From Odontesthes bonariensis (lineage: Eukaryota; Chordata; Actinopteri; Atheriniformes; Atherinopsidae): a stretch of DNA of 64,000 bases. A program made the position numbers and the translations under genes. Within the stretch, counting starts at the first letter, position 1, and the number at the start of each line of letters is the position of its first letter. The notes under the pieces are model-generated. The model did not search any database and had not been told where the DNA came from. It worked only from the letters and a program-made list of their open reading frames with translations. Shown piece by piece: positions 7,701 to 62,923 of this stretch. The stretch covers positions 379,501 to 443,500 of the forward strand of contig NC_134507.1 of NCBI RefSeq assembly GCF_027942865.1. The letters are read 5' to 3'.

Positions 7701-9972
7701 TAGTTTCGTATAGATTCGAATCGTATTGAATATTTCAGGTTCCTTCAGGTTTCGCTCTCTCATTGGACCTTTCTTTTTTGCTCTTTGTTTCCGTTGGCGA
7801 TCTTCTCTTTGAGAAGGCCCTTCTCCGTGCTGATGTGTGGCTTCTGGTTACAGATCTGAGCGTTTGCTCGCGGCAGCCGTGTCAGAACGGCGCCACCTGC
7901 GTGATGGAGGACAGCGGAGACTTCGCCTGTCTGTGTCCTGAAGGCTTCCACGGCCCGAGCTGCCAGCGGAGGACCGGACCGTGTCACCAGAGGAGGTGCG
8001 TGTTCCCGTCGCTGCCGACTCCAACTCGGAGATGTTTCCAAGCTCCGAGGGAGTTTAAAGACCATCTGAGGGAGTTTAAGGACTGTCTGAGGGGTTTAAA
8101 GACTATCTGAGGGAGTTTAAGGAGTATCTGAGGGGTTTAAAGACTATCTGAGGGAGTTTAAAGACTATCTTAGGGGTTTAAAGACTGTCTGAGGGGTTTT
8201 AAAGACCATCTGAGGGAGTTTAAGGAGTATCTGAGGGGTTTAAAGACTATCTGAGGGGTCTAAAGACTATCTGAGGGAGTTTAAGGACTATCTGAGGGGT
8301 TTAAAGACCGTCTGAGGGGGTATAAAGACCATTGGCGGGGTATAAAGACCGTCTGAGGGGGTTAAAGATCGTCTAACGTGGTATAAAGACCATTGAGGGG
8401 GTTTAAAGACAGTCTGAGGGGGTTAAAGATTGTCTAACAGGCTATAAAGACCATTGAAGGGGTTTAAAGACCGTCTGAGGGGGTATAAAGATCGTCTAAT
8501 GGGCTATAAAGACCATTGGCGGGGTATAAAGACCGTCTAACGGGGTATAAAGATCGTCTAATGGGCTACAAAGACCATTGAGGGGGTTTAAAGACCGTCT
8601 GAGGGGGTTAAAGATCATCTAACGTGGTATAAAGAACATTGAGGGGGTTTAAAGACCGTCTGAGGGGGTTAAAGACCGTCTGAGGGGGTTAAAGACCGTC
8701 TGAGGGGGTTAAAGATCGTCTAACGGGGTATAAAGACCGTCTGAGGTGGTTAAAGACCGTCTGAGGGGGTTAAAGACCGTCTGAGGGGGTTAAAGACAGT
8801 CTGAGGTGGTTATAAGACCATCTGAGGGGGTATAAAGACCATTGGCGGGGTATAAAGACCATTGAGGAGGTTTAAATGTCATCTAACGGGGTATAAAAAC
8901 CATTGAGGGGGTTTAAAGACCGTCTGAGGGGGTTAAAGATCATCTAACGGGGTATAAAGACCGTCTGAGGTGGTTAAAGACCGTCTGAGGGGGTTAAAGA
9001 CCGTCTGAGGGAGTTAAAGACAGTCTGAGGTGGTTATAAGACCGTCTGAGGGGGTTAAAGACCATTGGCGGGGGTTTAGATTGTCTAACGGGGTATAAAG
9101 ATTGCCCACAGACCACTTCAGCTGACAGTTGCTGCTTAAACACATGACGAAGCGCATTTGAGGGGTTTCAACCCTTCTTCTCGTCTCTCGGCTGCAGGTC
9201 TCCGTGTAGAAACGGCGGTCTGTGTGACGACGCTGATGGTTTCGCAGCAGAGCTGACGTGTAGCTGCCTCGCCGGCTTCACGGGCCCACGTTGCGAGCAC
9301 GATGTGGACGACTGTCTGATGATGCCGTGCGCCAGCGGCGCCACCTGCCTGGACGGCATCAACCGCTTCTCGTGCCTGTGCCCCGCCGGCTTCACCGGGC
9401 GCTTCTGCTCCATCAACCTGGACGACTGCGAGGGCCGGCCCTGCCTGCACGGCGGCCGCTGCCTGGACCGCGCCGGAGGCTTCCGCTGCGTGTGCCGGCC
9501 CAGCTTCACCGGAGCCACCTGTGAGACGCCGCTGAGGCGCCACAACGCCAGCTGGACCACGCTCGGGTGGGAAGGGGGGGGCCCGAGAAGCAGCGGTGGG
9601 AACAGCAGTCGTCATGGCGACAGGTCGGTGAAGGTGACGGTGAGTGAGCGCAGCGGCGCCGGCCTCTCCGGCGTGCAGTTCATCGTCGTGCTGGTGCTGG
9701 CCGGGACGACGCTGGGCGTGGTGGCGCTGACCGCCGCCCTCCTCCTGCAGAGTCACTGCCAGGACTGTGGCCACGCCCCTTGCTGGTCGTCCCCGCCATC
9801 ATCACAGGGAGGAGAGCCCAGCGGCCGGGGAGAGCCCAGCGGCCGGGGAGAGCCCAGCGGCCGGGGAGAGCCCAGCGGCCGGGGAGCGCCGCGTGGCGAG
9901 CAGGAGTGCCGCATCAGCTTCCTGAACGCAGCAGAACCACAGAAGAAGAAGCTCAACACGGAGGTCATTTAG
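1720..9972 (+). CDS. dlk2: Delta-like non-canonical Notch ligand 2 (dlk2), five coding exons
   Basis: Exons 1720-1801, 2768-2825, 3037-3167, 7854-7995 and 9198-9972 join in frame (1188 nt, 395 residues), all with GT-AG introns. Exon 1 encodes a signal peptide with a LLLL core ending near CTAE. Six EGF-like repeats follow (about residues 31-250), with the typical CxxGWxGxxC and GFTGxxC ends. One membrane segment lies near 296-321 and a tail of about 74 residues follows. There is no DSL domain, as in the DLK family. The string [12 protein letters not shown] in EGF5 and VDDCLM just before it match DLK2 as I remember the human protein, which is 383 residues. The family acts at the cell surface as an inhibitory Notch ligand. 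The tail holds four copies of an SGRGEP repeat and ends TEVI. DLK1 is the alternative, but EGF5 and the lrrc73 neighbour favour dlk2. Confidence 0.93.
3191..7105. repeat. 33/23-bp minisatellite in dlk2 intron 3
   Basis: About 140 units begin AATGAGGTCACTTCCTGA. They come in two lengths: 33 bases (with GGACGCATTAAACCC) and 23 bases (with AACCC only). The first, degenerate unit (3191-3215) starts 23 bases after the exon 3 donor. Every unit holds AGGTCA (nuclear-receptor half-site core) overlapping CACTTCCTG (ETS core on the other strand). The short open frames read [11 protein letters not shown]-type peptides and are not genes. Confidence 0.97.
7106..7735. repeat. ATCGN pentamer microsatellite in dlk2 intron 3
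   Basis: About 125 pentamers of ATCGA, ATCGT, ATCAA, ATCGC and ATCAT. The array directly follows the 33/23-bp array and ends about 120 bases before the exon 4 acceptor. Open frames on both strands (RIVSYRI or DTIRYDT peptides) are artefacts of the pentamer. Confidence 0.95.
8047..9110. repeat. 20-bp minisatellite in dlk2 intron 4
   Basis: About 52 units of GTTTAAAGACCGTCTGAGGG with ACTATC, TATAAAGACC and AACGGGG variants. The array begins about 50 bases after the exon 4 donor (7996) and ends about 90 bases before the exon 5 acceptor. Units containing TATAAAG look like TATA boxes, but nothing else suggests promoter function. Confidence 0.93.
9812..9883 (+). repeat. 18-bp coding repeat in the dlk2 cytoplasmic tail, four copies
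   Basis: Four perfect 18-base units (GAGAGCCCAGCGGCCGGG) keep the dlk2 frame and encode four copies of an SGRGEP hexapeptide. Low-complexity inserts in a cytoplasmic tail are usually tolerated, so copy number is probably polymorphic. Confidence 0.9.
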
Positions 9973-16824: not shown

Positions 16825-19127
16825 TCAACCCTTACTGCTGTGGGGGAGCCAGGTGGGGGGCTGGTGCTTGTCTCTGATTGGCTGAAGGGCGCTGCTGGGG
16901 GCGGGGCCTCGCAGCAGGGGCGGGGCCTCTCTGTCGTCGTCGTCCTCGCCCTCGGACAGGAGGTCGCCGATCTGCTGCTGCAGCTCCGGGCTGATGTCGT
17001 TCTCCGCCAGAACCAGAACCCGCAGGCTGGTCGGGAAGTTCTCCACCATGTCCAGGAACACCTGCACAAAGATGGCCGCCAGTACTCCTAAAACTTTATT
17101 TATTCTCACAGCAAAGACAGATACGATGGTTAGAGCCGATGTCTCCCCCTGCTGGACAACCTGCTGAACTACAGTCCAGAGTTCAGAACCACAGATTGTG
17201 TCTGGTTTACCTTTCCTTTAGTTTTTCCTTCATTTAACCAGGCGGGTTAAAACGTCCCGCTGTGATGTAATCAATGACATCATGACTCACTCTGGTTGGT
17301 CGGCTGGGATAAATATCCAGTCGAACCGTGCATTTCACACCTCAAACATACATCTAGATCCCAAAGTTATGTTTACTAACTAACCAACAGCACTGGGCTG
17401 GTTACCTGCAGGTTACCTGCTTTAACTAACCAACAGCACCAGGCTGGTTACCTGCTTTAACTAACCAACAACACCAGGCTGGTTATCTCTTTAAACAAAC
17501 TTTACACAACCCGGTGATGACGAAGAGGAAGAACTGAGTGCTGACCTGTGCTGACTGGTTGGTGAGTCCAGTTCCTTCCAGATCCAGAACCTCCAGAGTT
17601 CTACTGGACGCCACGGCAACCGCCAGCATCCCCGCGATCCGATCACCTTGGAGACAGAACCAGAATCAGACCCGACCGTCAGAGCCGGACCCGTACACAG
17701 ACCCTGGTCCACAGACCCTGGTCCACAGACCCTGGTCCACCTGAGCTCTTACCCAGCGGGTTGTAGTCCAGGTTCAGAACCCGGAGCTGCGAGCTGTGAG
17801 CGGCGGCGATGGCGAGCCGAGCCCAGCCTTTGGAGCTGATTCCTGGGTTAGCGCTCAGTGTCAGCTCCCTCAGACCTGCTCACACACACAGACATCTGTT
17901 ACGTTTTTTTTTTTAATAAACTTTATTTATCTTCACAATATCACAGTAACAGCAGTCATGAAAGAAATAGTGTACAGTAATGAACAAAGGACATAAATTG
18001 AAATAAGAACATAGTTAAAAAAATACAACGATAGAAAACTGTTAGAACAGAAGAGAGAAAAAAAAAGGAAAAATAAATAAATAAATTAAAAATAAAATTA
18101 CACAAGTAAATGCGATTTACAAAAATAAGTTATAGTCTTTCCAAATACTTATTGTTTTTATAGCCTTTTTGTTAATTGAATTCGAGATTGAGTCAAGATA
18201 CAATTTTACATCTATTACGAAGAGGTCAAAAAGTGGTTTCCTGTGCATTATTTTACTTTTATGAATATGCAATTTAGAACCGGTGGGGTTCCATCGGTCG
18301 CCCTGGTGATGTCAACGAGGGGTTAGACCTCCCAGAATGCTTTGCAGGTGATGACCTTACTCTGCCTGAGGCTGAAGTAACAGAGCCTCTGCTGAGCCTC
18401 TTTATTAATTAATTCACTTAATCAGATCCTGAACAACAGGTGCAGGTCTCAGGTGACACCTGAGACCTGCACCTGTTGTTCAGCCGTTTGTTCTGATGAG
18501 AAACACCTGAGAACTACAGACCTGTGGAGGTCACACAGACCCAGAACCTGCTCCCACAGACCCAGAACAGACCCAGAACCTTCTCCCACAGACCCAGAAC
18601 AGAACCAGAACCCCCTCACCTGACTTGGCCCCGTCCGGCGGCAGCAGGCCACAGATCAGGGCCAGCGCCTCGTCCCCCAGCATGCAGTCCCCCAGGTCCA
18701 GGCAGACCAGGGCCGGGTGGGTGGCCAGGGCCGGGTTCAGGGCCACCAGGCCGGCGTCCAGCAGCGGGCTGCCATGGAGACTGGAGGGGGCGGGGACAAA
18801 GAGTCACATGATGCTGTCACCGGGCGGATCGGCCAATCGGGGGCCGGCTACTCACAACAGGGTCTGCAGGGAGCGGTTGGTCCTCAGGGCGTCGGCCAGG
18901 TGGCGCGTGCGTCCGATGCCGGAGACCACGCCCAGGTTCAGGTTCAGCTGGGCCAGCGAGCGCGACTCGGCCACGCCGCCGCAGACGCGCCCGAAGTCGC
19001 GGTCGGACAGCTGGCAGCCGCGGACCGACAGCAGCCGCACGCCGTCCTCCTTCAGACTCTCACAGATGTCCTGGACCTCCGCCGCCGACAGCAGCTCCCC
19101 CGTGATCTGGATGGAGGCCGGCAGCAT
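16825..19127 (-). CDS. lrrc73: Leucine-rich repeat containing 73 (lrrc73), five coding exons
   Basis: Minus-strand exons 19127-18856, 18780-18620, 17875-17753, 17646-17546 and 17061-16825 join in frame (894 nt, 297 residues) with GT-AG introns. The protein starts [11 protein letters not shown]. It carries NOD/RNH-type leucine-rich repeats such as [34 protein letters not shown] and [18 protein letters not shown], then an acidic EGEDDDD stretch. Near-identity over these segments to human LRRC73 as I remember it (316 residues) makes the call firm. Its function is not established in any species I know. The C-terminal about 40 residues after the acidic run differ from human, so an alternative last exon is possible. 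Introns 2 and 3 have small repeats starting 7-8 bases after the donor. A GC-rich minisatellite abuts the ATG. Confidence 0.95.
17372..17490. repeat. Three-copy repeat, about 37 bp, in lrrc73 intron 4
   Basis: AACTAACCAACAGCAC followed by GGCTGGTTACCTGC occurs three times between lrrc73 exons 4 and 5. Confidence 0.8.
17685..17742. repeat. 14-bp repeat next to the lrrc73 exon 3 donor
   Basis: About four units of ACAGACCCTGGTCC. On the coding strand the repeat begins about 8 bases downstream of the exon 3 donor and fills about half of the 106-bp intron 3. Confidence 0.85.
17904..18275 (-). mobile_element. Retroelement 3' end in lrrc73 intron 2 (minus orientation)
   Basis: The segment opens with poly-T and TTTATT on the plus strand, that is AATAAA plus poly-A on the minus strand. 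AT-rich 3'-UTR-like sequence of the same style as the LINE tails at 12971 and 61754 follows. The right boundary is not marked by a clear target duplication. Confidence 0.5.
18429..18483. repeat. 55-bp near-perfect palindrome in lrrc73 intron 2
   Basis: Arms 18429-18455 and 18457-18483 are perfect complements over 27 bases, with a single A (18456) between them. The arms contain CAGGTG twice and CACCTG twice (E-boxes). The palindrome could extrude as a cruciform or fold as an intronic RNA hairpin. Confidence 0.97.
18530..18612. repeat. Short CCCACAGACCCAGAAC repeat next to the lrrc73 exon 2 donor
   Basis: Imperfect repeats of CCCACAGACCCAGAAC and AGAACCAGAACC. On the coding strand they begin about 7 bases after the exon 2 donor (18619). 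Confidence 0.75.
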
Positions 19128-19130
19128 CTG

Positions 19131-19567
19131 GACCGGACCGGGGGGACCGGGGGGACCGGGAGAACCTGCAAGAACAAGGTCAGCATGAGAACCAGGAGGA
19201 CCGGGGGGACCTGGAGAACCGGGAGAACCGGGAGGACTGGGAGAACCGGGGGGACCGGGGGGACCGGGGGGACCGGGGGGACCGGGGGGACCGGGGGGTG
19301 CGGGAGGACCGGGAGAACCTGCAAGAACAAGGTCAGCATGAGAACCAGGAGGACCGGGGGGACCTGGAGAACCGGGAGAACCGGGAGGACTGGGAGAACC
19401 GGGGGAACCTGGAGGACCGGGAGGACTGGGAGAACCGGGGGAACCGGGAGGACCGGGGGTACCTGGAGGACCGGGAGAAGCGGGAGGACTGGGAGAACCG
19501 GGGGAACTGGGAGAACCGGGAGGACCGGGAGGACTGGGAGAACCGGGGGAACCGGGGGGACCGAGAG
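19131..19567. repeat. GGACCGGGG minisatellite abutting the lrrc73 start codon
   Basis: Imperfect 9-bp units (GGACCGGGG, GAACCGGGA) on the plus strand read as collagen-like Gly-X-Y triplets on the minus strand, in frame with lrrc73. A segment containing a good splice acceptor (TTGTTCTTGCAG on the minus strand) occurs twice, with AG ending at 19166 and at 19319. The first probably defines the 5' edge of lrrc73 coding exon 1 (19165). About 23 more bases of the same repeat appear at 30547-30569. Confidence 0.9.
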
Positions 19568-22500
19568 GGTCTGTGTCGAAGCCACGTAGGCTCACCACTG
19601 GGGTTCCCCAAGGTTCGGTCCTGGGTCCTCTTCTTTTCTCCCTCTACACATCATCTCTTGGTTCCATCATCCACTCCCATAACTTTTCCTACCACTGCTA
19701 TGCAGATGACACCCAGCTGATTCTGTCTTTTCCCCCTTCTGACACCCCAGTGGAGGCATTGCTGCGTGCCTGGCAGACATCTCGGGGTGGATGTGGATGC
19801 ACCATCTTAAGCTCAACCTGAGACTGAGCTGGTGTTTCTCCCGGGGGAAGGGCTGCCCGTTCAGAGATCTGGTGCTGGCCTACAGGGCAGTGGAAGGAGC
19901 AGCTCCTTCATACCTCCAGGCTGTGGTCCAGTTTCAGACTCTGGTGCTGGCCTACAGGGCAGTGGAAGGAGCAGCTCCTTCATACCTCCAGGCTGAGGTC
20001 CAGTTTCAGACCCTGGTGCTGGTCTACAGGGCAGTGGAAGGAACAGCTCCTTCATAACTCCAGGCTGAGGTCCAGTTTCAGACTCTGGTGCTGGCCTACA
20101 GTGGAAGGAGCAGCTCCTTCATACCTCCAGGCTGAGGTCCAGTTTCAGGCTCTGGTGCTGGCCTACAGTGGAAGGAGCAGCTCCTTCATACCTCCAGGCT
20201 GAGGTCCAGTTTCAGGCTCTGGTGCTGGCCTACAGGGCAGTGGAAGGAGCAGCTCCTTCATGCCTCCAGGCTGAGGTCCAGTTTCAGACTCTGGTGCTGG
20301 CCTACAGGGCAGTGGAAGGAGCAGCTCCTTCATGCCTCCAGGCTGAGGTCCAGTTTCAGACTCTGGTGCTGGCCTACAGGGCAGTGGAAGGAGAAGCTCC
20401 TTCATACCTCCAGGCTGAGGTCCAGTTTCAGACTCTGATGCTGGCCTACAGGGCAGTGGAAGGAGCAGCTCCTTCATACCTCCAGGCTGTGGTCCAGTTT
20501 CAGACTCTGGTGCTGGCCTACCGTGGAAGGAGCAGCTCCTTCATACCTCCAGGCTGTGGTCCAGTTTCAGACTCTGGTGCTGGCCTACAGGGCAGTGGAA
20601 GGAGCAGCTCCTTCATACCTCCAGGCTGAGGTCCAGTTTCAGACTCTGGTGCTGGCCTACAGGGCAGTGGAAGGAGCAGCTCCTTCATACCTCCAGGCTG
20701 GGGTCCAGTTTCAGACTCTGGTGCTGGCCTACAGGGCAGTGGAAGGAGCAGCTCCTTCACACCTCCAGGCTGTGGTCCAGTTTCAGACTCTGGTGCTGGC
20801 CTACAGGGCAGTGGAAGGAGCAGCTCCTTCATGCCTCCAGGCTGTGGTCCAGTTTCAGACTCTGGTGCTGGCCTACAGGGCAGTGGAAGGAGCAGCTCCT
20901 TCATACCTCCAGGCTGTGGTCCAGTTTCAGACTCTGGTGCTGGCCTACAGGGCAGTGGAAGGAGCAGCTCCTTCATATCTCCAGGCTGTGGTCCAGTTTC
21001 AGACTCTGGTGCTGGCCTACAGGGCAGTGGAAGGAGCAGCTCCTTCATACCTCCAGGCTGTGGTCCAGTTTCAGACTCTGGTGCTGGCCTACAGGGCAGT
21101 GGAAGGAGCAGCTCCTTCATACCTCCAGGCTGAGGTCCAGTTTCAGACTCTGGTGCTGGCCTACAGGGCAGTGGAAGGAGCAGCTCCTTCATACCTCCAG
21201 GCTGAGGTCCAGTTTCAGACTCTGGTGCTGGCCTACAGGGCAGTGGAAGGAGCAGCTCCTTCATACCTCCAGGCTGTGGTCCAGTTTCAGACTCTGGTGC
21301 TGGCCTACAGGGCAGTGGAAGGAGCAGCTCCCTCATTACTCCAGGCTGAGGTCCAGTTTCAGACTCTGGTGCTGGCCTACAGTGGAAGGAGCAGCTCCTT
21401 CATAACTCCAGGCTGTGGTCCAGTTTCAGACTCTGGTGCTGGCCTACAGGGCAGTGGAAGGAGCAGCTCCTTCATACCTCCAGGCTGAGGTCCAGTTTCA
21501 GACCCTGGTGCTGGTCTACAGGGCAGTGGAAGGAACAGCTCCTTCATAACTCCAGGCTGAGGTCCAGTTTCAGGCTCTGGTGCTGGCCTACAGGGCAGTG
21601 GAAGGAGCAGCTCCTTCATGCCTCCAGGCTGAGGTCCAGTTTCAGACTCTGGTGCTGGCCTACAGGGCAGTGGAAGGAGAAGCTCCTTCATACCTCCAGG
21701 CTGAGGTCCAGTTTCAGACTCTGATGCTGGCCTACAGGGCAGTGGAAGGAGCAGCTCCTTCATACCTCCAGGCTGTGGTCCAGTTTCAGACTCTGGTGCT
21801 GGCCTACCGTGGAAGGAGCAGCTCCTTCATACCTCCAGGCTGTGGTCCAGTTTCAGACTCTGGTGCTGGCCTACAGGGCAGTGGAAGGAGCAGCTCCTTC
21901 ATACCTCCAGGCTGAGGTCCAGTTTCAGACTCTGGTGCTGGCCTACAGGGCAGTGGAAGGAGCAGCTCCTTCATGCCTCCAGGCTGTGGTCCAGTTTCAG
22001 ACTCTGGTGCTGGCCTACAGGGCAGTGGAAGGAGCAGCTCCTTCATACCTCCAGGCTGAGGTCCAGTTTCAGACTCTGGTGCTGGCCTACAGGGCAGTGG
22101 AAGGAGCAGCTCCTTCATACCTCCAGGCTGTGGTCCAGTTTCAGACTCTGGTGCTGGCCTACAGGGCAGTGGAAGGAGCAGCTCCTTCATATCTCCAGGC
22201 TGTGGTCCAGTTTCAGACTCTGGTGCTGGCCTACAGGGCAGTGGAAGGAGCAGCTCCTTCATACCTCCAGGCTGTGGTCCAGTTTCAGACTCTGGTGCTG
22301 GCCTACAGGGCAGTGGAAGGAGCAGCTCCTTCATACCTCCAGGCTGAGGTCCAGTTTCAGACTCTGGTGCTGGCCTACAGGGCAGTGGAAGGAACAGCTC
22401 CTTCATACCTCCAGGCTGTGGTCCAGTTTCAGACTCTGGTGCTGGCCTACAGGGCAGTGGAAGGAGCAGCTCCTTCATAACTCCAGGCTGTGGTCCAGTT

Positions 22501-23461
22501 TCAGACTCTGGTGCTGGCCTACAGGGCAGTGGAAGGAGCAGCTCCTTCATACCTCCAGGCTGAGGTCCAGTTTCAGACTCTGGTGCTGGCCTACAGGGCA
22601 GTGGAAGGAGCAGCTCCTTCATACCTCCAGGCTGTGGTCCAGTTTCAGACTCTGGTGCTGGCCTACAGTGGAAGGAGCAGCTCCTTCATACCTCCAGGCT
22701 GTGGTCCAGTTTCAGACTCTGGTGCTGGCCTACAGTGGAAGGAGCAGCTCCTTCATGCCTCCAGGCTGAGGTCCAGTTTCAGACTCTGGTGCTGGCCTAC
22801 AGTGGAAGGAGCAGCTCCTTCATACCTCCAGGCTGTGGTCCAGTTTCAGACTCTGGTGCTGGCCTACAGGGCAGTGGAAGGAGCAGCTCCCTCATACCTC
22901 CAGGCTGTGGTCCAGTTTCAGACTCTGGTGCTGGCCTACAGGGCAGTGGAAGGAGCAGCTCCTTCATACCTCCAGGCTGTGGTCCAGTTTCAGACTCTGG
23001 TGCTGGCCTACAGGGCAGTGGAAGGAGCAGCTCCCTCATACCTCCAGGCTGTGGTCCAGTTTCAGACTCTGGTGCTGGCCTACAGGGCAGTGGAAGGAGC
23101 AGCTCCTTCATACCTCCAGGCTGTGGTCCAGTTTCAGACTCTGGTGCTGGCCTACAGGGCAGTGGAAGGAGCAGCTCCTTCATACCTCCAGGCTGAGGTC
23201 CAGTTTCAGACTCTGGTGCTGGCCTACAGGGCAGTGGAAGGAGCAGCTCCTTCATAACTCCAGGCTGTGGTCCAGTTTAAGACTCTGGTGCTGGCCTACA
23301 GGGCAGAAGGAGCAGCTCCTTCATACCTCCAGGCTGTGGTCCAGTTTCAACTGCCCGACCCCTTGGCTCTTCGGCCTCCAGGCGGCCGGCTGCCCCCTCA
23401 CTCAGCGGTCCCTGCGCACCATCCACACGGTCACGGCTTTTCTCTGTTCTGGCCCCCCGAT
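19568..23461 (+). mobile_element. L2/CR1-type LINE fragment with internally amplified C-terminus
   Basis: The plus frame at 19573-19860 reads [18 protein letters not shown], then YADDTQL (the reverse-transcriptase catalytic YADD), then HLKLNL and GKGCPF. These are the fingers/palm and downstream part of an L2/CR1-like ORF2. The segment LVLAYRAVEGAAPSYLQA that should occur once near the C-terminus is then repeated about 48 times (19866-23345). After the array the tail resumes as VPAHHPHGHGF. The element lacks its endonuclease half and has frame changes, so it is dead. Confidence 0.8.
19866..23345 (+). repeat. 72-bp satellite derived from LINE coding sequence, about 48 copies
   Basis: The unit encodes 24 residues (LVLAYRAVEGAAPSYLQA then V/EVQFQT). 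Most units are 72 bases. A minority lack 5 bases (CTACAGTGGAAGG instead of CTACAGGGCAGTGGAAGG) and switch frame. Because 72 is a multiple of three and stops are absent, long open frames exist on both strands. Shared rare variants (GAGAAGCTCC, CTACCGTGG) recur exactly 1286 bases apart, showing a higher-order duplication. Confidence 0.95.
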
Positions 23462-23530
23462 GGTAATGTAATGAAATGCAAAGTAATGTAATGTAATGTA
23501 ATGTAATGTAATGTAATGCAATGTAATGTA
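23462..23530. repeat. AATGT pentamer array, first block
   Basis: About 14 pentamers lie directly between the end of the L2-like fragment and the start of the second LINE. This is the same family as the blocks at 25704-28494 and 29404-30546. Confidence 0.9.
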
Positions 23531-25202
23531 ACGCTCAGGCCTACAGCTCATCCAGGGCTGACCTGAAGAGGGGCATCAAGGAGGCCAAGCACAGCCACAA
23601 GCTTAGGATTGAGGAGCACTTCAAGAACAACTCCGACCCCCGACGCATGTGGCAGAGCATCCAGGCCATAACTGACTACAAAGCCACCAACACCATCCCA
23701 ACATCCGATGACGCCTCCTTCCCAGACGAGCTTAACAGCTTTTATGCTCGCTTTGAGAGGGACAACCAGGAGCCAGCCATCAAGGCTGTACTCATGACAG
23801 GACACCAACCCGTCACCCTCTCCTCCACCGACGTGTGCACCGCACTGAGCAGGACCAACGCACGTAAGGCTGCTGGCCCTGATGGCATCCCTGGACGCGT
23901 ACTTAGGGCCTGTGCTGGGCAGCTGGCTGAGGTCCTGACTGACATTTTCAACCTGTCTCTGGACCAAGCAGTTGTCCCCACATGCTTCAAAACCACCTCC
24001 ATCGTGCCGGTGCCAAAACATTCCAAAGCTGAGAGCCTCAACGACTTCCGCCCTGTCGCACTCACGCCCACCATTTTGAAGTGCTTCGAGAGGCTGGTCC
24101 TGGCTCACCTCAAAACCTGCCTACCTCCCACACTGGACCCCCTCCAATTCGCCTACCGCCAGAATAGGAGCACGGAGGATGCCATCACCACGGCACTACA
24201 CTCCGCCCTTTCTCACCTGGACAATAGCAACACCTACGTGAGAATGCTGTTCATAGATTTCAGTTCAGCATTCAACACCATCATCCCCTCAAAACTGATA
24301 ACCAAACTCAACGACCTAGGTATCAACGCTTCCCTCTGCAACTGGGTTCTGGACTTCCTAACCAACAGACCCCAGTCTGTTAGGCTAGAAAAGCACACCT
24401 CCTCTACCCTCACCCTGAACACCGGCGTCCCACAGGGCCCAGAGTCCTCTCCTCTACTCCCTCTTCACCTACGACTGCACACCTGTACATGGTTCCAACA
24501 CCATTATCAAGTTTGCTGACGACACAACGGTGGTGGGCCTCATCAGCAACAATGATGAGGTGGCGTACAGAGAAGAAGTTCAGCATCTGGCAGAGTGGTG
24601 CGCTGACAACAACCTGGCCCTCAACACCAAGAAGACCAAAGAGCTCATTGTGGACTTCAGGAAGAAGAGTGGCACACACACCCCCATCCTCATCAACGGG
24701 ACGGAGGTTGAGCGTGTCACCAGCTTCAAGTTCCTGGGTGTCCACATCTCTGAGGAGCTCTCTTGGTCTCTCAACACCTCAACTCTGGTTAAGAAGGCAC
24801 ACCAGCGTCTCTTCTTCCTGAGGAGACTCAAGAAGGCCCCATCTGTCTCCTCAGATCCTGGTGAACTTTTACCGCTGCACCATCGAGAGCATCCTCACCA
24901 ACTGCATCTCGGTGTGGTATGGTAGCTGCTCTGTCGCGGACCGGAGATCACTTCAGAGGGTGGTGAAAACCGCCCAACACATCACAGGTTCTCCACTCCC
25001 ATCCATCGAGGCTGTCCAGAGCAAGAGGTGTCTGCGGAAGGCGCGCAGCATCGTGCGGGACAGCTCTCACCCCAGCCACAGACTGTTTACCCTCCTCCCC
25101 TCCGGGAAGCGCTACAGGGTTCTCCGCTCCAGGACCAGCAGGTTCAGGAAAAGCTTCCTCCCTGCAGCGGTCACCCTGCTGAACTCTCAACCTCGGTGCC
25201 CC

Positions 25203-25233
<31 letters not shown>

Positions 25234-25703
25234 ACCCAGAGACTGTGGATTGCAACACAAACCCCCTCAGCCACTGAACCTTGCACTGAACTGAACTGTT
25301 AGTACTGCATTTTCCCACTATAGTGTATTCACTCGTATTGTATTTATCTTTTTCCATTTATTTTATTTAATCCATTTATTCCATAATACCTCACTGTGTA
25401 ACTCATTGTAATTATTCCAATCTACCTTTTCATCTACATTTGTATTTATTCACCACCTCACTTTACATGCACATTCTCTGCACTTTAACTGCTTGCATTT
25501 ATTTACTACTACACTTTACTTTACATATGCACATTCTCTGCACTTTAACTGCTTGCATTTATTCACTACTACACTTTACTTTACATGCACATTCTCTGCA
25601 CTTTAACTGCTTTTTTGCACTTCTGGTTAGATGCTAAACTGCATTTCGTTGTCTCAGAACCTGTACTCTGTGCAATGACAATAAAGTTGAATCTAATCTA
25701 ATC
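23531..25703 (+). mobile_element. 5'-truncated CR1/L2/Rex1-group LINE, frameshifted
   Basis: Begins inside ORF2 ([16 protein letters not shown]) and continues through reverse-transcriptase landmarks [50 protein letters not shown] and [10 protein letters not shown], then FLGVHISEELSW and the C-terminal CISVWYGSCS. Frameshifts lie near 24440 (just after VPQG) and near 24850, so the protein is broken. A C19 tract plus (CA)n sits at 25200-25235. The 3' end reads GACAATAAAGTTG followed by an AATCT pentamer tail, typical of this LINE group. It lies inside the AATGT satellite. The precise clade name is uncertain. Confidence 0.9.
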
Positions 25704-28494
25704 AATGTAATGTAATGTAATGTAAAGCAATGTAATGTAAAGCAATGTAATGTAATGTAATGTAAAGCAATGTAATGTAAAGCAATGTAATGTAATGTAA
25801 TGTAAAGTAATGTAATGTAAAGCAATGTAATGTAAAGCAATGTAATGTAATGTAAAGCAATGTAATGCAATGTAATGTAATGTAAAGCAATGTAATGTAA
25901 TGTAATGTAAAGCAATGTAATGTAATGTAATGTAAAGTAATGTAATGTAAAGCAATGTAATGTAAAGCAATGTAATGTAATGTAAAGCAATGTAATGCAA
26001 TGTAATGTAATGTAAAGTAATGTAATGTAAAGCAATGTAATGTAAAGCAATGTAATGTAATGTAATGTAAAGTAATGTAATGTAAAGCAATGTAATGTAA
26101 AGCAATGCAATGTAATGTAAAGCAATGTAATGTAAAGCAATGTAATGTAATGTAATGTAAAGCAATGTAATGTAATGTAATGTAATGTAAAGCAATGTAA
26201 TGTAAAGCAATGTAATGTAATGTAAAGCAATGTAATGTAAAGCAATGCAATGTAATGTAAAGCAATGTAATGTAAAGCAATGTAATGTAATGTAATGTAA
26301 TGTAAAGCAATGTAATGTAAAGCAATGTAATGTAATGTAAAGCAATGTAATGCAATGTAATGTAATGTAAAGCAATGTAATGTAAAGCAATGTAATGTAA
26401 TGTAATGTAAAGCAATGTAATGTAATGTAATGTAATGTAAAGCAATGTAATGTAAAGCAATGTAATGTAATGTAATGTAAAGCAATGTAATGTAATGTAA
26501 TGTAATGTAATGCAATGTAATGTAAAGCAATGTAATGTAATGTAATGTAATGTAAAGCAATGTAATGTAAAGCAATGTAATGTAATGTAATGTAAAGGAA
26601 TGTAATGTAATGTAATGTAAAGTAATGTAATGTAAAGCAATGTAATGTAAAGCAATGTAATGTAATGTAAAGCAATGTAATGTAAAGCAATTTAATGTAA
26701 AGCAATGTAATGTAATGTAATGTAATGTAAAGCAATGTAATGTAATGTAATGTAATGTAATGTAAAGCAATGTAATGTAAAGCAATGTAATGTAATGTAA
26801 TGTAAAGCAATGTAATGTAAAGCAATGTAATGTAATGTAATGTAATGCAATGTAATGTAAAGCAATGTAATGTAATGTAATGTAATGTAAAGCAATGTAA
26901 TGTAAAGCAATGTAATGTAATGTAATGTAATGTAAAGCAATGTAATGTAAAGCAATGTAATGTAATGTAAAGCAATGTAATGTAAAGCAATGTAATGTAA
27001 TGTAATGTAAAGCAATGTAATGTAAAGCAATGTAATGTAATGTAATGTAAAGCAATGTAATGTAAAGCAATGTAATGTAATGTAAAGCAATGTAATGTAA
27101 AGCAATGTAATGTAATGTAAAGCAATGTAATGTAAAGCAATGTAATGTAATGCAATGTAATGTAAAGCAATGTAATGTAAAGCAATGTAATGTAATGTAA
27201 TGTAATGTAATGTAAAGCAATGTAATGTAAAGCAATGTAATGTAATGTAATGTAAAGCAATGTAATGTAATGTAAAGCAATGCAATGTAATGTAAAGCAA
27301 TGTAATGTAAAGCAATGTAATGTAATGTAATGTAATGTAAAGCAATGTAATGTAAAGCAATGTAATGTAATGTAATGTAAAGCAATGTAATGTAAAGCAA
27401 TGTAATGTAAAGCAATGTAATGTAATGTAATGTAATGTAAAGCAATGTAATGTAATGCAATGTAATGTAAAGCAATGTAATGTAAAGCAATGTAATGTAA
27501 TGCAATGTAATGTAAAGCAATGTAATGTAAAGCAATGTAATGTAATGTAATGTAAAGCAATGTAATGTAATGCAATGTAATGTAAAGCAATGTAATGTAA
27601 AGCAATGTAATGTAATGCAATGTAATGTAAAGCAATGTAATGCAATGTAATGTAAAGCAATGTAATGTAATGTAATGTAATGTAATGTAATGTAAAGCAA
27701 TGTAATGTAATGTAATGTAAAGCAATGTAATGTAATGTAAAGCAATGTAATGTAATGTAAAGCAATGTAATGTAAAGCAATGTAATGTAATGTAATGTAA
27801 AGCAATGTAATGTAAAGCAATGTAATGTAAAGCAATGTAAAGCAATGTAATGTAATGTAATGTAATGTAATGTAAAGCAATGTAATGTAATGTAATGTAA
27901 AGCAATGTAATGTAATGTAATGTAAAGCAATGTAATGTAAAGCAATGTAATGTAAAGCAATGTAATGTAATGTAATGTAATGTAAAGCAATGTAATGTAA
28001 TGTAATGTAATGTAAAGCAATGTAATGTAAAGCAATGTAATGTAATGCAATGTAATGTAAAGCAATGTAATGTAAAGCAATGTAATGTAATGCAATGTAA
28101 TGTAATGTAATGTAAAGCAATGTAATGTAAAGCAATGTAATGTAATGTAATGTAATGTAATGTAATGTAATGTAATGTAATGTAAAGCAATGTAATGTAA
28201 AGCAATGTAATGTAATGCAATGTAATGTAAAGCAATGTAATGTAAAGCAATGTAATGTAATGTAATGTAAAGCAATGTAATGTAATGTAATGTAATGTAA
28301 TGTAATGCAATGTAATGTAATGTAATGTAAAGCAATGTAATGTAATGTAATGTAATGTAATGTAATGTAATGCAATGTAATGTAATGTAAAGCAATGCAA
28401 TGTAATGTAATGTAATGTAATGTAAAGCAATGTAATGTAATGTAATGTAATGTAATGTAATGTAATGCAATGTAATGTAATGTAAAGCAATGTA
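25704..28494. repeat. AATGT pentamer satellite, second block
   Basis: About 558 pentamers drawn almost entirely from TGTAA, AGCAA and TGCAA. The register shows essentially no insertion or deletion across 2.79 kb. This leaves minus-strand frames open for more than 900 codons (HYITLHCFTL peptides), which are not genes. Confidence 0.97.
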
Positions 28495-29403
28495 CCGTAA
28501 ATCCTCTAATATAGGCCGGGGCCTTTATTCACTCACGTGCATCTTGGTCCCGGCCATTATTGGAAGGAGGCCAGAATTAGAGACAGGCCTCTATTTCTAT
28601 TTGAGCAAAACGGACTACCAGTGGAATGAATAAAAACGAGATTTTGTGTCTATTTGAACTTATAAAATAAACAAATACCGGCAATTCGGGCTAAATTCCA
28701 GTGTAGTACCGGTAATATGGTAACAGAAACGTAGCAAACATACCGGTACCAGTAGACTGCGGTCAAGTGAGCCGCCACTCGTTCATGCGCGGCTCACTTG
28801 ACCGCAGTTACCAGTAGTGCATTGTCACTTAACCATGGTGATAATTAGGCTACCGGTATTTCATCTCCTCTTCATCTCTCCCCGTAATGTCCTCATCACT
28901 CGCGCCAGTCTCTACAACAAGTTCATTATAGTACAGTTCTTCTTCGTCCTCCTCATGTTCTGCTGCCTGTCTGTTCTCTTCCTCGCGCAGACGGGCAGCA
29001 GCGCAGGGCTGTAAAAAACCATATCGGTAGTTTGGCCGTTATTGCAAGTCACAGTGGACAGGCTCACTCACGATCGTGATCGCATTCGAATGCGATAGTG
29101 ATAGAAGTGAATGCTAATTTCAACATACCATAAATCCTACTTATTTATTTTTTATTTTACTTAGTTTTGCTTTAACTTTGTTGTTACCGGTAATCTGACT
29201 GTAAAGCGCATTGAGCTGCAAGTCTTGTATGTTACGATCACAAGTACCGGTATAATGTTGAGGCTGCCCAGAGAAATCGTTGGTTCTATAGACCCGGCCT
29301 GTATAAGAGTCCGGCCAGTATTTACCTCCTCCGACAGCGAGACCGGCCAATATTAGAATCCCGGCCAGTAATGGAATACAGGCCAATATTAGAGGATTTA
29401 CGG
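28495..29403. mobile_element. 909-bp TIR DNA transposon inserted at TA in the satellite
   Basis: The left end CCGTAAATCCTCTAATAT (28495-) and the complement of the right end agree over 22 of 23 bases. TA flanks both sides (28493-28494 and 29404-29405). Removing the element plus one TA exactly restores the pentamer register, so boundaries and duplication are secure. Subterminal CCGGCCA/GGCCGGG motifs are repeated at both ends and a 19-bp-stem hairpin lies inside. No transposase frame is present. The family is uncertain; a TA duplication fits Tc1/mariner- or ISL2EU-like groups. Confidence 0.9.
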
Positions 29404-30546
29404 TAATGTAAAGCAATGTAATGTAAAGCAATGTAATGTAATGTAATGTAAAGCAATGTAATGTAATGTAATGTAAAGCAATGTAATGTAATGTAAAGCA
29501 ATGTAATGTAATGTAATGTAAAGCAATGTAATGTAATGTAATGTAAAGCAATGTAATGTAATGTAATGTAAAGCAATGTAATGTAAAGCAATGTAATGTA
29601 AAGCAATGTAATGTAATGTAATGTAATGTAAAGAAATGTAATGTAAAGCAATGTAATGTAATGTAATGTAATGTAATGTAAAGCAATGTAATGTAATGTA
29701 ATGTAATGTAATGTAATGTAATGTAAAGCAATGTAATGTAATGTAATGTAATGTAATGTAATGTAATTTAAAGCAATGTAATGTAAAGCAGTGTAATGTA
29801 ATGTAATGTAATGTAATGTAAAGCAATGTAATGTAAAGCAATGTAATGTAAAGCAATGTAATGTAATGTAATGTAATGTAAAGCAATGTAATGTAAAGCA
29901 ATGTAATGTAATGTAATGTAATGTAATGTAAAGCAATGTAATGTAATGTAATGTAATGTAATGTAAAGAAATGTGATGTAATGTAATGTAATGTAATGTA
30001 AAGAAATGTGATGTAATGTAATGTAATGTAATGTAAAGAAATGTGATGTAATGTAATGTAATGTAATGTAAAGAAATGTGATGTAATGTAATGTAATGTA
30101 AAGAAATGTAATGTAATGTAATGTAATGTAATGTAATGTAAAGCAATGTAATGTAATGTAATGTAATGTAATGTAATGTAAAGAAATGTGATGTAATGTA
30201 ATGTAATGTAAAGAAATGTGATGTAATGTAATGTAATGTAAAGCAATGTAATGTAATGTAATGTAATGTAATGTAAAGCAATGTAATGTAATGTAAAGAA
30301 ATGTAATGTAATGTAATGTAATGTAATGTAAAGAAATGTGATGTAATGTAATGTAATGTAAAGAAATGTAATGTAATGTAATGTAATGTAAAGAAATGTG
30401 ATGTAATGTAATGTAATGTAAAGCAATGTAATGTAATGTAATGTAATGTAAAGAAATGTGATGTAATGTAATGTAATGTAATGTAATGTAAAGAAATGTG
30501 ATGTAATGTAATGTAATGTAAAGCAATGTAAAGAAATGTGATGTAA
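29404..30546. repeat. AATGT pentamer satellite, third block
   Basis: Continues the second block in register. From about 29960 a new variant, AAAGAAATGTGATGT, spreads at intervals of 30-45 bases, so this end has been homogenised separately. It ends directly at GGGACCGGGGGGACC, the minisatellite seen at 19131-19567. Confidence 0.95.
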
Positions 30547-30619
30547 TGGGACCGGGGGGACCGGGAGGAACAGTCAGACACTCAGTGCCTCCTATTGGCT
30601 GGTCTTCAGTCACCTGACA

Positions 30620-33143
30620 TCAATTAATCAGAACTTATTGATCAGTCTGCAGGTTTAATCAGAACTTATTGATCAGTCTGCAGCTTTAATCAGAACTTAT
30701 TGATCAGTCTGCATGTTTAATCAGAACTTATTGATCAGTCTGCATGTTTAATCAGAACTTATTGATCAGTCTGCAGGTTTAATCAGAACTTATTGATCAG
30801 TCTGCAGGTTTACTCAGAACTTATTGATTAATCTGCAGGTTTAATCAGAACTTATTGATCAGTCTGCAGGTTTACTCAGAACTTATTGATCAGTCTGCAT
30901 GTTTAATCAGAACTTATTGATCAGTCTGCAGGTTTACTCAGAACTTATTGATCAGTCTGCAGCTTTAATCAGAACTTATTGATCAGTCTGCAGGTTTAAT
31001 CAGAACTTATTGATCAGTCTGCAGGTTTACTCAGAACTTATTGATTAATCTGCAGGTTTAATCAGAACTTATTGATCAGTCTGCAGGTTTAATCAGAACT
31101 TATTGATCAGTCTGCATGTTTAATCAGAACTTATTGATCAGTCTGCAGCTTTAATCAGAACTTATTGATCAGTCTGCAGGTTTAATCAGAACTTATTGAT
31201 CAGTCTGCAGGTTGCAGGTTTAATCAGAACTTATTGATCAGTCTGCAGGTTTAATCAGAACTTATTGATCAGTCTGCAGCTTTAATCAGAACTTATTGAT
31301 CAGTCTGCAGGTTGCAGGTTTAATCAGAACTTATTGATCAGTCTGCATGTTTAATCAGAACTTATTGATCAGTCTGCAGGTTTAATCAGAACTTATTGAT
31401 CAGTCTGCAGGTTTAATCAGAACTTATTGATCAGTCTGCAGCTTTAATCAGAACTTATTGATCAGTCTGCATGTTTAATCAGAACTTATTGATCAGTCTG
31501 CAGCTTTAATCAGAACTTATTGATCAGTCTGCATGTTTAATCAGAACTTATTGATCAGTCTGCAGGTTTAATCAGAACTTATTGATCAGTCTGCAGGTTT
31601 AATCAGAACTTATTGATCAGTCTGCAGCTTTAATCAGAACTTATTGATCAGTCTGCATGTTTAATCAGAACTTATTGATCAGTCTGCAGGTTTAATCAGA
31701 ACTTATTGATCAGTCTGCATGTTTAATCAGAACTTATTGATCAGTCTGCATGTTTAATCAGAACTTATTGATCAGTCTGCAGGTTTAATCAGAACTTATT
31801 GATCAGTCTGCAGCTTTAATCAGAACTTATTGATCAGTCTGCAGCTTTAATCAGAACTTACTGATCAGTCTGCAGGTTTAATCAGAACTTATTGATCAGT
31901 CTGCAGGTTTAATCAGAACTGATCAATCTGCAGGTTTAATCAGAACTTATTGATCAGTCTGCAGGTTTAATCAGAACTTATTGATCAGTCTGCAGGTTGC
32001 AGGTTTAATCAGAACTTATTGATCAGTCTGCAGCTTTAATCAGAACTTATTGATCAGTCTGCATGTTTAATCAGAACTTATTGATCAGTCTGCATGTTTA
32101 ATCAGAACTTATTGATCAGTCTGCAGCTTTAATCAGAACTTATTGATCAGTCTGCAGGTTGCAGGTTTAATCAGAACTTATTGATCAGTCTGCATGTTTA
32201 ATCAGAACTTATTGATCAGTCTGCAGCTTTAATCAGAACTTATTGATCAGTCTGCAGGTTTAATCAGAACTTATTGATCAGTCTGCAGCTTTAATCAGAA
32301 CTTATTGATCAGTCTGCAGGTTTAATCAGAACTTATTGATCAGTCTGCAGGTTTAATCAGAACTTATTGATCAGTCTGCAGGTTTAATCAGAACTTATTG
32401 ATCAGTCTGCATGTTTAATCAGAACTTATTGATCAGTCTGCAGGTTTAATCAGAACTTATTGATCAGTCTGCAGGTTTAATCAGAACTTATTGATCAATC
32501 TGCAGGTTTAATCAGAACTTATTGATCAGTCTGCAGGTTTAATCAGAATTTATTGATCAATCTGCAGGTTTAATCAGAACGTATTGATCAGTCTGCATGT
32601 TTAATCAGAACGTATTGATCAGTCTGCAGGTTTAATCAGAACTTATTGATCAGTCTGCAGGTTTAATCAGAACTTATTGATCAGTCTGCAGGTTTAATCA
32701 GAACTTATTGATCAATCTGCAGGTTTAATCAGAACTTATTGATCAGTCTGCAGGTTTAATCAGAATTTATTGATCAATCTGCAGGTTTAATCAGAACGTA
32801 TTGATCAGTCTGCAGGTTTAATCAGAACTTATTGATCAGTCTGCAGGTTTAATCAGAACTTATTGATCAGTCTGCAGGTTTAATCAGAACTTATTGATCA
32901 ATCTGCAGGTTTAATCAGAACTTATTGATCATTCTGCAGGTTTAATCAGAACTTATTGATCAGTCTGCAGGTTTGATCAGAACTTATTGATGAAGCTGCA
33001 GGTTTGATCAGAACTTATTGATCAGAACTTATTGATCAGTCTGCAGGTTTGATCAGAACTTATTGATCAGAACTTATTGATGAAGCTGCAGGTTTGATCA
33101 GAACTTATTGATCAGTCTGCAGGTTTGATCAGAACTTATTGAT
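30620..33143. repeat. 31-bp minisatellite
   Basis: About 80 units, each beginning TTTAATCAGAACTTATTGAT and ending CAGTCTGCAGG, with ATG/CTT/GTT changes at the junction. Each holds the palindromes TGATCA and CTGCAG. The distal end (32980-33140) is more degenerate. No open frame. Confidence 0.97.
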
Positions 33144-33279
33144 AGAATAGTTTCAGTTAAACTGATCATGTTGGTCAGCTGATCAAACATGTTTCAGAGT
33201 TAATCAATAATCAGTGAATATCAAGTATTGATCTCCTAATCATGAGGTAACTAATTCACCTGATGAGTGATCGATCAGC

Positions 33280-33735
33280 TCACGCGGGGATAGTCGAGAC
33301 TGTCACGCGCTGATGTCATCATTGGCTGATCCCGCCGCAGGCCACGCGCCGGTTCTGATCCACAGCGGAGAACATCGGTGCCGATCGACCGGAGTATCGA
33401 TTGATCGGGTTTGTCTGTTGGAAGAGAGGCGGCTGGAGTGTCGCTGCCGCGCGGCCGAGCAGAGGGTCTGTCGGGCGGTGCGAGCTCGTGAGTCCCGGTG
33501 TGTTTCTGCAGGTGACCGTTACTATGAGACCCGGAGAGAGGAGCGGGAGGAGGGCTCACTCTGAGCCGAATCCAGGGACCCAGAGCCGCGGCACACTGCG
33601 GCTGCGCACCAACAGGAGCGATGACAGCAGACTGCGGCTGCGCACCAACAGGAGCGATAACAGCAGACTGCGGCTGCGCACCAACAGGAGCGAGAACAGC
33701 AGACTGCGGCTGCGCACCAACAGGAGCGAGAACAG
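33280..33735. promoter_or_regulatory. CpG-rich candidate promoter with 36-bp repeat
   Basis: CpG dinucleotides are dense here, unlike the surroundings. CATTGGCTGAT at 33331 is an inverted CCAAT box and GATGTCATC lies beside it. From about 33598 to 33733 a 36-bp unit (GACTGCGGCTGCGCACCAAC plus 16 more) occurs four times. It could be the missing upstream promoter/first exon of lrrc73, whose coding exon 1 appears to have an upstream splice acceptor. It could also belong to an unrecognised gene. Open frames here have no recognisable product. Confidence 0.4.
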
Positions 33736-33752
33736 AGATATCTGTCTGATCC

Positions 33753-34364
33753 GACTTGTAGAAAACTGTTATAATTGCAAAACAAATTTGGAAACAACAG
33801 AACACCTATTTTATGAATGTGAGACTGTCCAAAATTTGTGGAAATCTCTACATCACTTATTATCATCCAGTTCCATAAACACGGATTTTTGGTCTTTTCA
33901 AAACGTCCAAGTAGGCGTAATCCTCAAAGATAAAAAAAACAGAGTTCTTGATAAATAACCTCATCATCATCACTAAATTTTATATTCACAAGTGTCCATA
34001 TGCCAAATCCCACCTTCATGGCTCGCATTAAAATATAATATATCCTCGTTACAAAATTGTCTGAAACATAAATAATCCCCATGCAAATAAATTATACACA
34101 CTCATAGAAAATCTTAACCTGTCCTAACCTCTTGTAACTGTTTAGAAGTTTTTTTTTTAAATTTTTATTTATTATTATTTTTTTTTTAATTAATTAATTT
34201 ATTTTTGTTATTATTATTTATCATCCCCTTTTTTATCTTGTGTATTTAAGATCCTTCAAATTTTGTTTCTATATGTGGAGGTGTTAATATGTAAAGTTAA
34301 AAAACATTTTTTTTACTTCTGAGTATGTCATTGTTTTGTCTATGTGACATGTTTGAAAAAAAAA
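33753..34364 (+). mobile_element. 5'-truncated L1 insertion with 13-bp target duplication
   Basis: ATCTGTCTGATCC at 33740-33752 is repeated at 34365-34377. Between them lies the C-terminus of an L1-type ORF2 with the zinc-knuckle pattern CYNCKTNLETTEHLFYEC, then QNLWKSL, a stop, an AT-rich 3' UTR and a short poly-A. A nearly identical copy lies in ppp2r5d intron 1 in the opposite orientation, so the family was recently active. Confidence 0.93.

Positions 34365-42828: not shown

Positions 42829-62923
<20,095 letters not shown>

Follow-up and report, generated by a model that had tools for sequence, protein, structure and literature searches.

The 72-bp tandem array in the 64,000-nucleotide stretch of DNA analyzed here (the window; C2:379501-443500) was not the product of a one-off birth but the longest member of a series, in which 23 loci carried from 2 to 49 units, all at one place of the open reading frame (ORF) of an L2 LINE. 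The explanation that we favor, and hold to be probable, is that these arrays represent a minisatellite (VNTR) internal to a UnaL2-type L2 family, which was duplicated once or a few times, spread to 23 loci and grew or shrank there.

In the window, the array occupied positions 19860-23349 on the + strand, where TRF returned 49.1 copies of a 72-bp (24-codon) unit with 95% matches and a score of 6271, a value far above chance expectation; approximately 48 repeats had been counted in an earlier note on this DNA. Translation of the unit gave FQTLVLAYRAVEGAAPSYLQA(V/E)VQ. With regard to unit length, 39 of the 47 fully bounded units measured 72 bp and eight measured 67 bp; in addition, an in-frame stop was present in 4 of the 39 units of 72 bp, and no ORF among those listed for the window spanned the array. 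These shorter units and stops led us to reject an open coding array, and with it the previous statement that the frame stays open. Approximately 1 kb of the array, moreover, matched itself at 97% with an offset of 1.28 kb (contig positions 399500 and 400781), revealing an inner block duplication, and the variants T9C, C41A, G13A and A30C, which were private to this array, recurred in order; both features are signs of local growth. Matches of the array translation to unrelated Pfam families were set aside as repeat artefacts.

The sequences adjoining the array confirmed its L2-like origin, since an RVT_1 domain was found upstream and other L2 copies have the unit at the equivalent place, once or repeatedly. 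Both flanks, however, were less complete than had been described. On the upstream side, a 5'-truncated L2 reverse transcriptase (RT) segment (19563-19859, +) was recognized by Pfam RVT_1 (E 7.8e-9; window positions 19342-19821 scanned), encoded YADDTQL and was 91-96% identical to the L2 copies of loci L014, L015, L018, L022-L025 and L028. This L2 copy was truncated at about 19563, next to a 9-bp GAGGACCGG-type minisatellite outside L2 (19187-19568; TRF), and approximately 370 bp of L2 were absent between its RT segment and the repeats, with matches to reference positions 1-248 of 620 only; the LINE does not, as previously stated, read normally before the repeats. Nor does it properly resume after them: just about 112 bp of the L2 ORF (23350-23461, +), 89-97% identical to the equivalent segment in 18 of the 20 multi-unit loci that were fetched, preceded a cut-off, a short (TGTAA)n tract (23463-23531, +; TRF) repeating the pentamer seen in the 3' tails of other L2 copies, and then a different LINE (23532-25703, +). 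The latter, flanked by (TGTAA)n stretches, ending in ...aataaagttgaatctaatctaatc and presumably Rex1/Babar-like, had its own RVT_1 matches in 23527-24519 (E 8.9e-20) and 24419-24925 (E 4.5e-8), and was therefore rejected as the resumed parent. The flanks of the array are thus damaged, and the array sits in a dead L2 fragment.

Further downstream, two more (TGTAA)n arrays detected by TRF, of 2.8 kb (25704-28494, +) and 1.1 kb (29403-30548, +), were separated by an insert (28493-29404) that, as read in the sequence, bears terminal inverted repeats (TACCGTAAATCCTCTAATAT...), is edged by TA and resembles a DNA transposon or MITE. The tail pentamer was therefore expanded in the window, in tracts of 69 bp, 2.8 kb and 1.1 kb that all lie on one strand, the same as in the L2 tail. 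The whole region 23463-30548 looks like an L2 3' tail that grew to about 4 kb and then received two insertions, although the former unity of the tracts is something that we infer.

The typical member of the L2 family carries one unit. A genome-wide search for the unit's 3' boundary, as it stands in L2, gave 597 places (≤3 mismatches). From the first 100 zero-mismatch matches to this boundary, all on C1-C12, four multi-unit loci were subtracted, and 31 of the remaining 96 copies were read; the sampling pattern required RTG, so that this sample is uninformative on GAG in single-unit copies. In 27 of the 31, the two boundaries enclosed exactly one 72-bp unit, and the other four had no readable 5' boundary, either because the sampled stretch started too late (L051) or because the boundary was not intact (L052, L060 and L070). 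No unit junction at ≤3 mismatches occurred in the 96 other copies (among the matches listed, C1-C12). Single-unit copies mostly showed CATCCAG followed by TTT(A/C)AG at the 5' boundary and GGTC(A/C)AG followed by CCC at the 3' boundary, which indicates that short direct repeats (CATCCAG before the unit, GGTCMAG at its end) bound the unit. In many L2 copies, GCTGCAGCATCC replaced GCTGCTCGCATCC at the 5' boundary and was one base shorter; given that this form is shared, an L2 lineage with a frameshift has apparently spread. Close single-unit copies were also seen in two groups, L034-L036 (C17:0.4-0.6 Mb) and L037-L040 (C15:3.0-3.8 Mb), each at the end of one chromosome, a pattern suggestive of local duplication.

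The family appears to be a UnaL2-type L2 LINE, a clade name that we draw from an Rfam element and the TGTAA tail. The UnaL2 3' element RF00436 was detected at the gathering score in 7 of 19 loci. A TGTAA tail followed the stem-loop in each of the loci L009-L028, measuring 10-28 bp in 18 of them, 179 bp in L012 and 74 bp in L014; the published UnaL2 tail likewise consists of TGTAA repeats (PMC3747384). The RT ORF, the conserved 3' element and this tail are shared with UnaL2 and further stringent-type L2 LINEs of fish, from which the present family differs in that 23 copies hold 2-49 tandem 72-bp ORF units. The window copy also differs in having no 3' element: its 3' UTR is missing, and a search of window positions 18000-34000 gave no UnaL2 match at E values up to 1.

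The census of multi-unit loci covered the 945-Mb genome (187 contigs) and employed a junction probe, GGTCCAG joined to TTTCAG inside a 34-place pattern, with the reversed pattern as a control. Genome-wide, 193 unit junctions were recorded at ≤2 mismatches and 194 at ≤3, compared to 0 for the control. The window and the loci L009-L030, 23 loci altogether, contained 193 and 194 junctions, equal to the genome totals, and hence the list of loci is complete at ≤3 mismatches, while more diverged junctions could escape; a junction with 3 mismatches lies in L029. The longest arrays comprised 49 (window), 47 (L010), 19 (L009), 14 (L011), 13 (L012) and 10 units (L013), followed by arrays of seven (L014 and L015), six (L016 and L017), five (L018 and L019) and four units (L020), and finally of three (L021-L025) and two (L026-L029, and L030 with an insert in its first unit). 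In L030 (121-755), this insert splits the first of the two units, and GGCCTACAG is repeated on both of its sides, like a target-site duplication.

All 194 junctions belonged to loci with L2 sequence beside the array, and by these counts the units amounted to less than 20 kb in all; the term minisatellite or VNTR therefore fits better than satellite. Indeed, none of the 23 loci had the abundance and freedom from the parent element of a classical satellite array, and the units, arranged head to tail and homologous to a LINE segment, were those of a LINE-derived minisatellite. These data bear on the reading of the earlier note, i.e., a one-off birth of a satellite inside the single L2 copy of the window with both flanks of the parent attached. 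It is correct that an L2 coding segment is arrayed there, within an L2 fragment and with L2 on both sides, but the window cannot be taken as the birthplace, as the same junction and shared derived unit variants are found at 22 other loci; nor is such a junction a rare sight, as 23 loci in the genome have an equivalent one. Family members with many copies, which had been named as evidence that would speak against such a birth, exist to a degree, with 2-47 units in 22 other copies, whereas the sampled copies mostly had a single unit (27 of 31). A one-off birth is refuted as a full account, and we give it next to no credence; what can be local is no more than the final extension to 49 units. Smaller still, and practically negligible, is the chance that the window array is an artefact of assembly: long arrays are difficult to assemble, but graded arrays with 2, 3, 4, 5, 6, 7, 10 or a larger number of units, whose sites differ in their neighbors, together with the private variants of the window array, argue against it.

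With regard to chromosomal setting, none of the 23 multi-unit loci lay more than 4.6 Mb from a contig end. Within 5 Mb of an end, we found 23 of the 23 multi-unit loci compared to 34 of the 96 other copies (among the matches listed, C1-C12; Fisher 2e-9, or 5e-9 with 22 loci only). Array length and distance to the contig end were not correlated (Spearman -0.26, p 0.24). Tandem repeats with a period of at least 5 made up 5,056 of 16,000 bases in eight terminal stretches, sampled 1-1.5 Mb from contig starts, versus 52 of 16,000 in eight interior ones, with two of the terminal stretches supplying 3,993 of the 5,056 bases and three having none. Such repeats also accounted for 8,197 of 60,000 bases in the outer flanks of L009-L028 and for about 60% of the window (38,426 of 64,000 bases), which harbors about two dozen arrays, the longest of 8 kb (46824-54780, 21-bp period). 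Contig ends are putative telomeres only: among those inspected, the C2 start consisted of N and the C22 start of a minisatellite, the C4 start contained 22 CCCTAA in 1.2 kb, and no TTAGGG was found at the C2 end. This confinement of multi-unit copies to contig-end regions, the richness of terminal stretches in tandem repeats, the direct repeats that bound the unit in single-unit copies and the several L2 flank backgrounds in which arrays occur (see below) are in line with a recurrent process, in which the segment was duplicated independently from locus to locus under the influence of the direct repeats and of a terminal setting prone to tandem growth.

The derived marks common to the arrays nevertheless make recurrent duplication unlikely. 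The first of these marks, GAG (E) at codon 22 of 24, was present in 115 of 190 internal units compared to 3 of 20 last units (22 loci), and was detected in 21 of the 22 coded loci and in L030, i.e., in 22 of 23, being absent in L021. Directly before the L2 3' flank, GAG occurred three times genome-wide, in each case in a multi-unit locus (L012, L018 and L027), against 412 occurrences of RTG (both counts from exact 26-place patterns only). Furthermore, two changes separate GAG from ATG, the common codon, and one separates it from GTG. The second mark, the 67-bp unit, was found 51 times genome-wide at ≤1 mismatch, and was distributed over 10 of the 23 loci (9 of the 22 coded ones and L030) and one other place, C15:1972568. 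Units were only slightly more similar within loci (1.92 differences) than between loci (2.10), with 28 of 500 label shuffles as extreme; when L009, L010 and L012 were taken singly, their units were more alike within the locus than in comparison with other loci, which indicates that part of the growth was local.

Trees of the L2 flanks were not in line with simple descent of the duplicated form either. In the 3' flank tree, a single clade of multi-unit loci was rejected (AU p 8.2e-5), and 11 changes of unit label, at least 4 of them forced by starred branches, were counted; in an earlier flank tree, there were 8 changes, of which 2 were forced. The AU-tested tree included 20 multi-unit rows (L019 being without a 3' boundary and L026 dropped) and 45 rows labeled single, L031, L041, L043 and L045 having been dropped, and on both trees the two-unit locus L030 carried the label "single". 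The multi-unit label was more clustered than in shuffles on both trees (0 or 1 of 500 as low), which is what partial vertical descent would give. Nonetheless, as the flanks do not form one clade, one duplication followed by plain vertical copying is insufficient. Markers on the 5' and 3' sides were also mixed in combination, in single-unit and multi-unit copies alike. Since the GAG and 67-bp marks are shared and yet the flanks are not monophyletic, the duplicated form was probably passed between L2 copies, growing locally thereafter.

For 20 of the 23 loci (L009-L028), spread by copying of whole subtelomeric blocks was rejected. Comparison of the 500 bp beyond their tails yielded one 59-bp match in all, off the junction; their 3' neighbors thus differ, and these loci are separate insertions. 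A further scenario is a master L2 with a native long array that seeds copies by retrotransposition, short arrays being 5'-truncated or contracted products. Non-L2 sequence directly precedes an incomplete first unit in L009 and L010, the array of L013 has no L2 body before it, and the last units of L023, L024 and L027 have A7G in common, all of which would suit a master element. However, L2 sequence was kept before the array in 17 of the 20 fetched multi-unit loci, where arrays were consequently not shortened by 5' truncation; moreover, the order of units differs among loci, the flanks are not one clade and most of the family has one unit. We therefore consider a master element very unlikely.

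For the internal minisatellite that we favor, the place in the ORF, the junction, the counts, the shared derived unit variants, the separate insertion sites (20 loci) and the terminal location are shown directly, while we infer how the exchange came about and in which order the events took place. Ordinary L2 copies hold the 72-bp segment once, between the CATCCAG and GGTCMAG direct repeats, and exchange or slippage between these repeats would have produced an in-frame duplication of the segment. One or few such duplications may then have reached 23 L2 loci via retrotransposition of duplicated copies, via unequal exchange and gene conversion near chromosome ends, or via both, after which the arrays would have lengthened and shortened locally, like other minisatellites of terminal regions. 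A more far-reaching proposal, which we regard as tentative and rather doubtful, is a LINE subfamily whose RT ORF bears an in-frame 24-residue repeat of variable copy number; this repeat would pass between dispersed L2 copies at chromosome ends by ectopic exchange, the retrotransposon-derived VNTR evolving as one converting pool across non-homologous chromosomes.

LINE-ORF-derived satellites are already known, and what is distinctive here is the graded series of arrays and their terminal confinement. SVA elements are non-LTR retroposons with an internal variable tandem array (VNTR); compared to this type, the repeats described here lie in a LINE ORF and in a small minority of copies. One study lists as tandem repeats related to LINE ORFs HinfI (CR1, chicken), PROsat (LINE-1 ORF2, Phodopus) and Pvc 20 (LINE-1 ORF2, seal) (PMC9659126); against these, the L2 arrays have a short, purely coding 24-codon unit and graded intermediates inside L2 copies. 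A review presents for the MITE miDNA4 a model in which internal arrays of transposable elements grow between short direct repeats (PMC12628747). There too, a single monomer or a variable array is bounded by direct repeats of about 5 bp, but the MITE is thought to have captured its repeat, whereas here a LINE coding segment was duplicated; where a passage of that review speaks of LINEs as sources of satellites, it points to their untranslated regions and not to ORFs (PMC12628747). A minisatellite in the L2 ORF was not described in the literature searched by title, which does not prove its absence in print. While the route from a single transposon copy to a satellite is mostly inferred from end products, this one genome combines a parent with a single unit, direct repeats where the break occurs and stages of 2, 3, 4, 5, 6, 7, 10, 13, 14, 19, 47 and 49 units, and unit markers can separate birth, spread and growth of the arrays. 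As multi-unit copies are terminal and copies of the parent LINE occur all along the chromosomes, the chromosomal setting is pointed to as a driver, and its role is made testable.

Two other features of the window were recorded. A short, near-perfect hairpin at 18432-18480 matched unrelated miRNA families, below their cut-offs. In addition, by-eye reading of translations revealed EGF-like segments at 2741-3205 and 9148-9972 that seem to belong to a Delta-like/Notch-ligand gene and are split by minisatellites.
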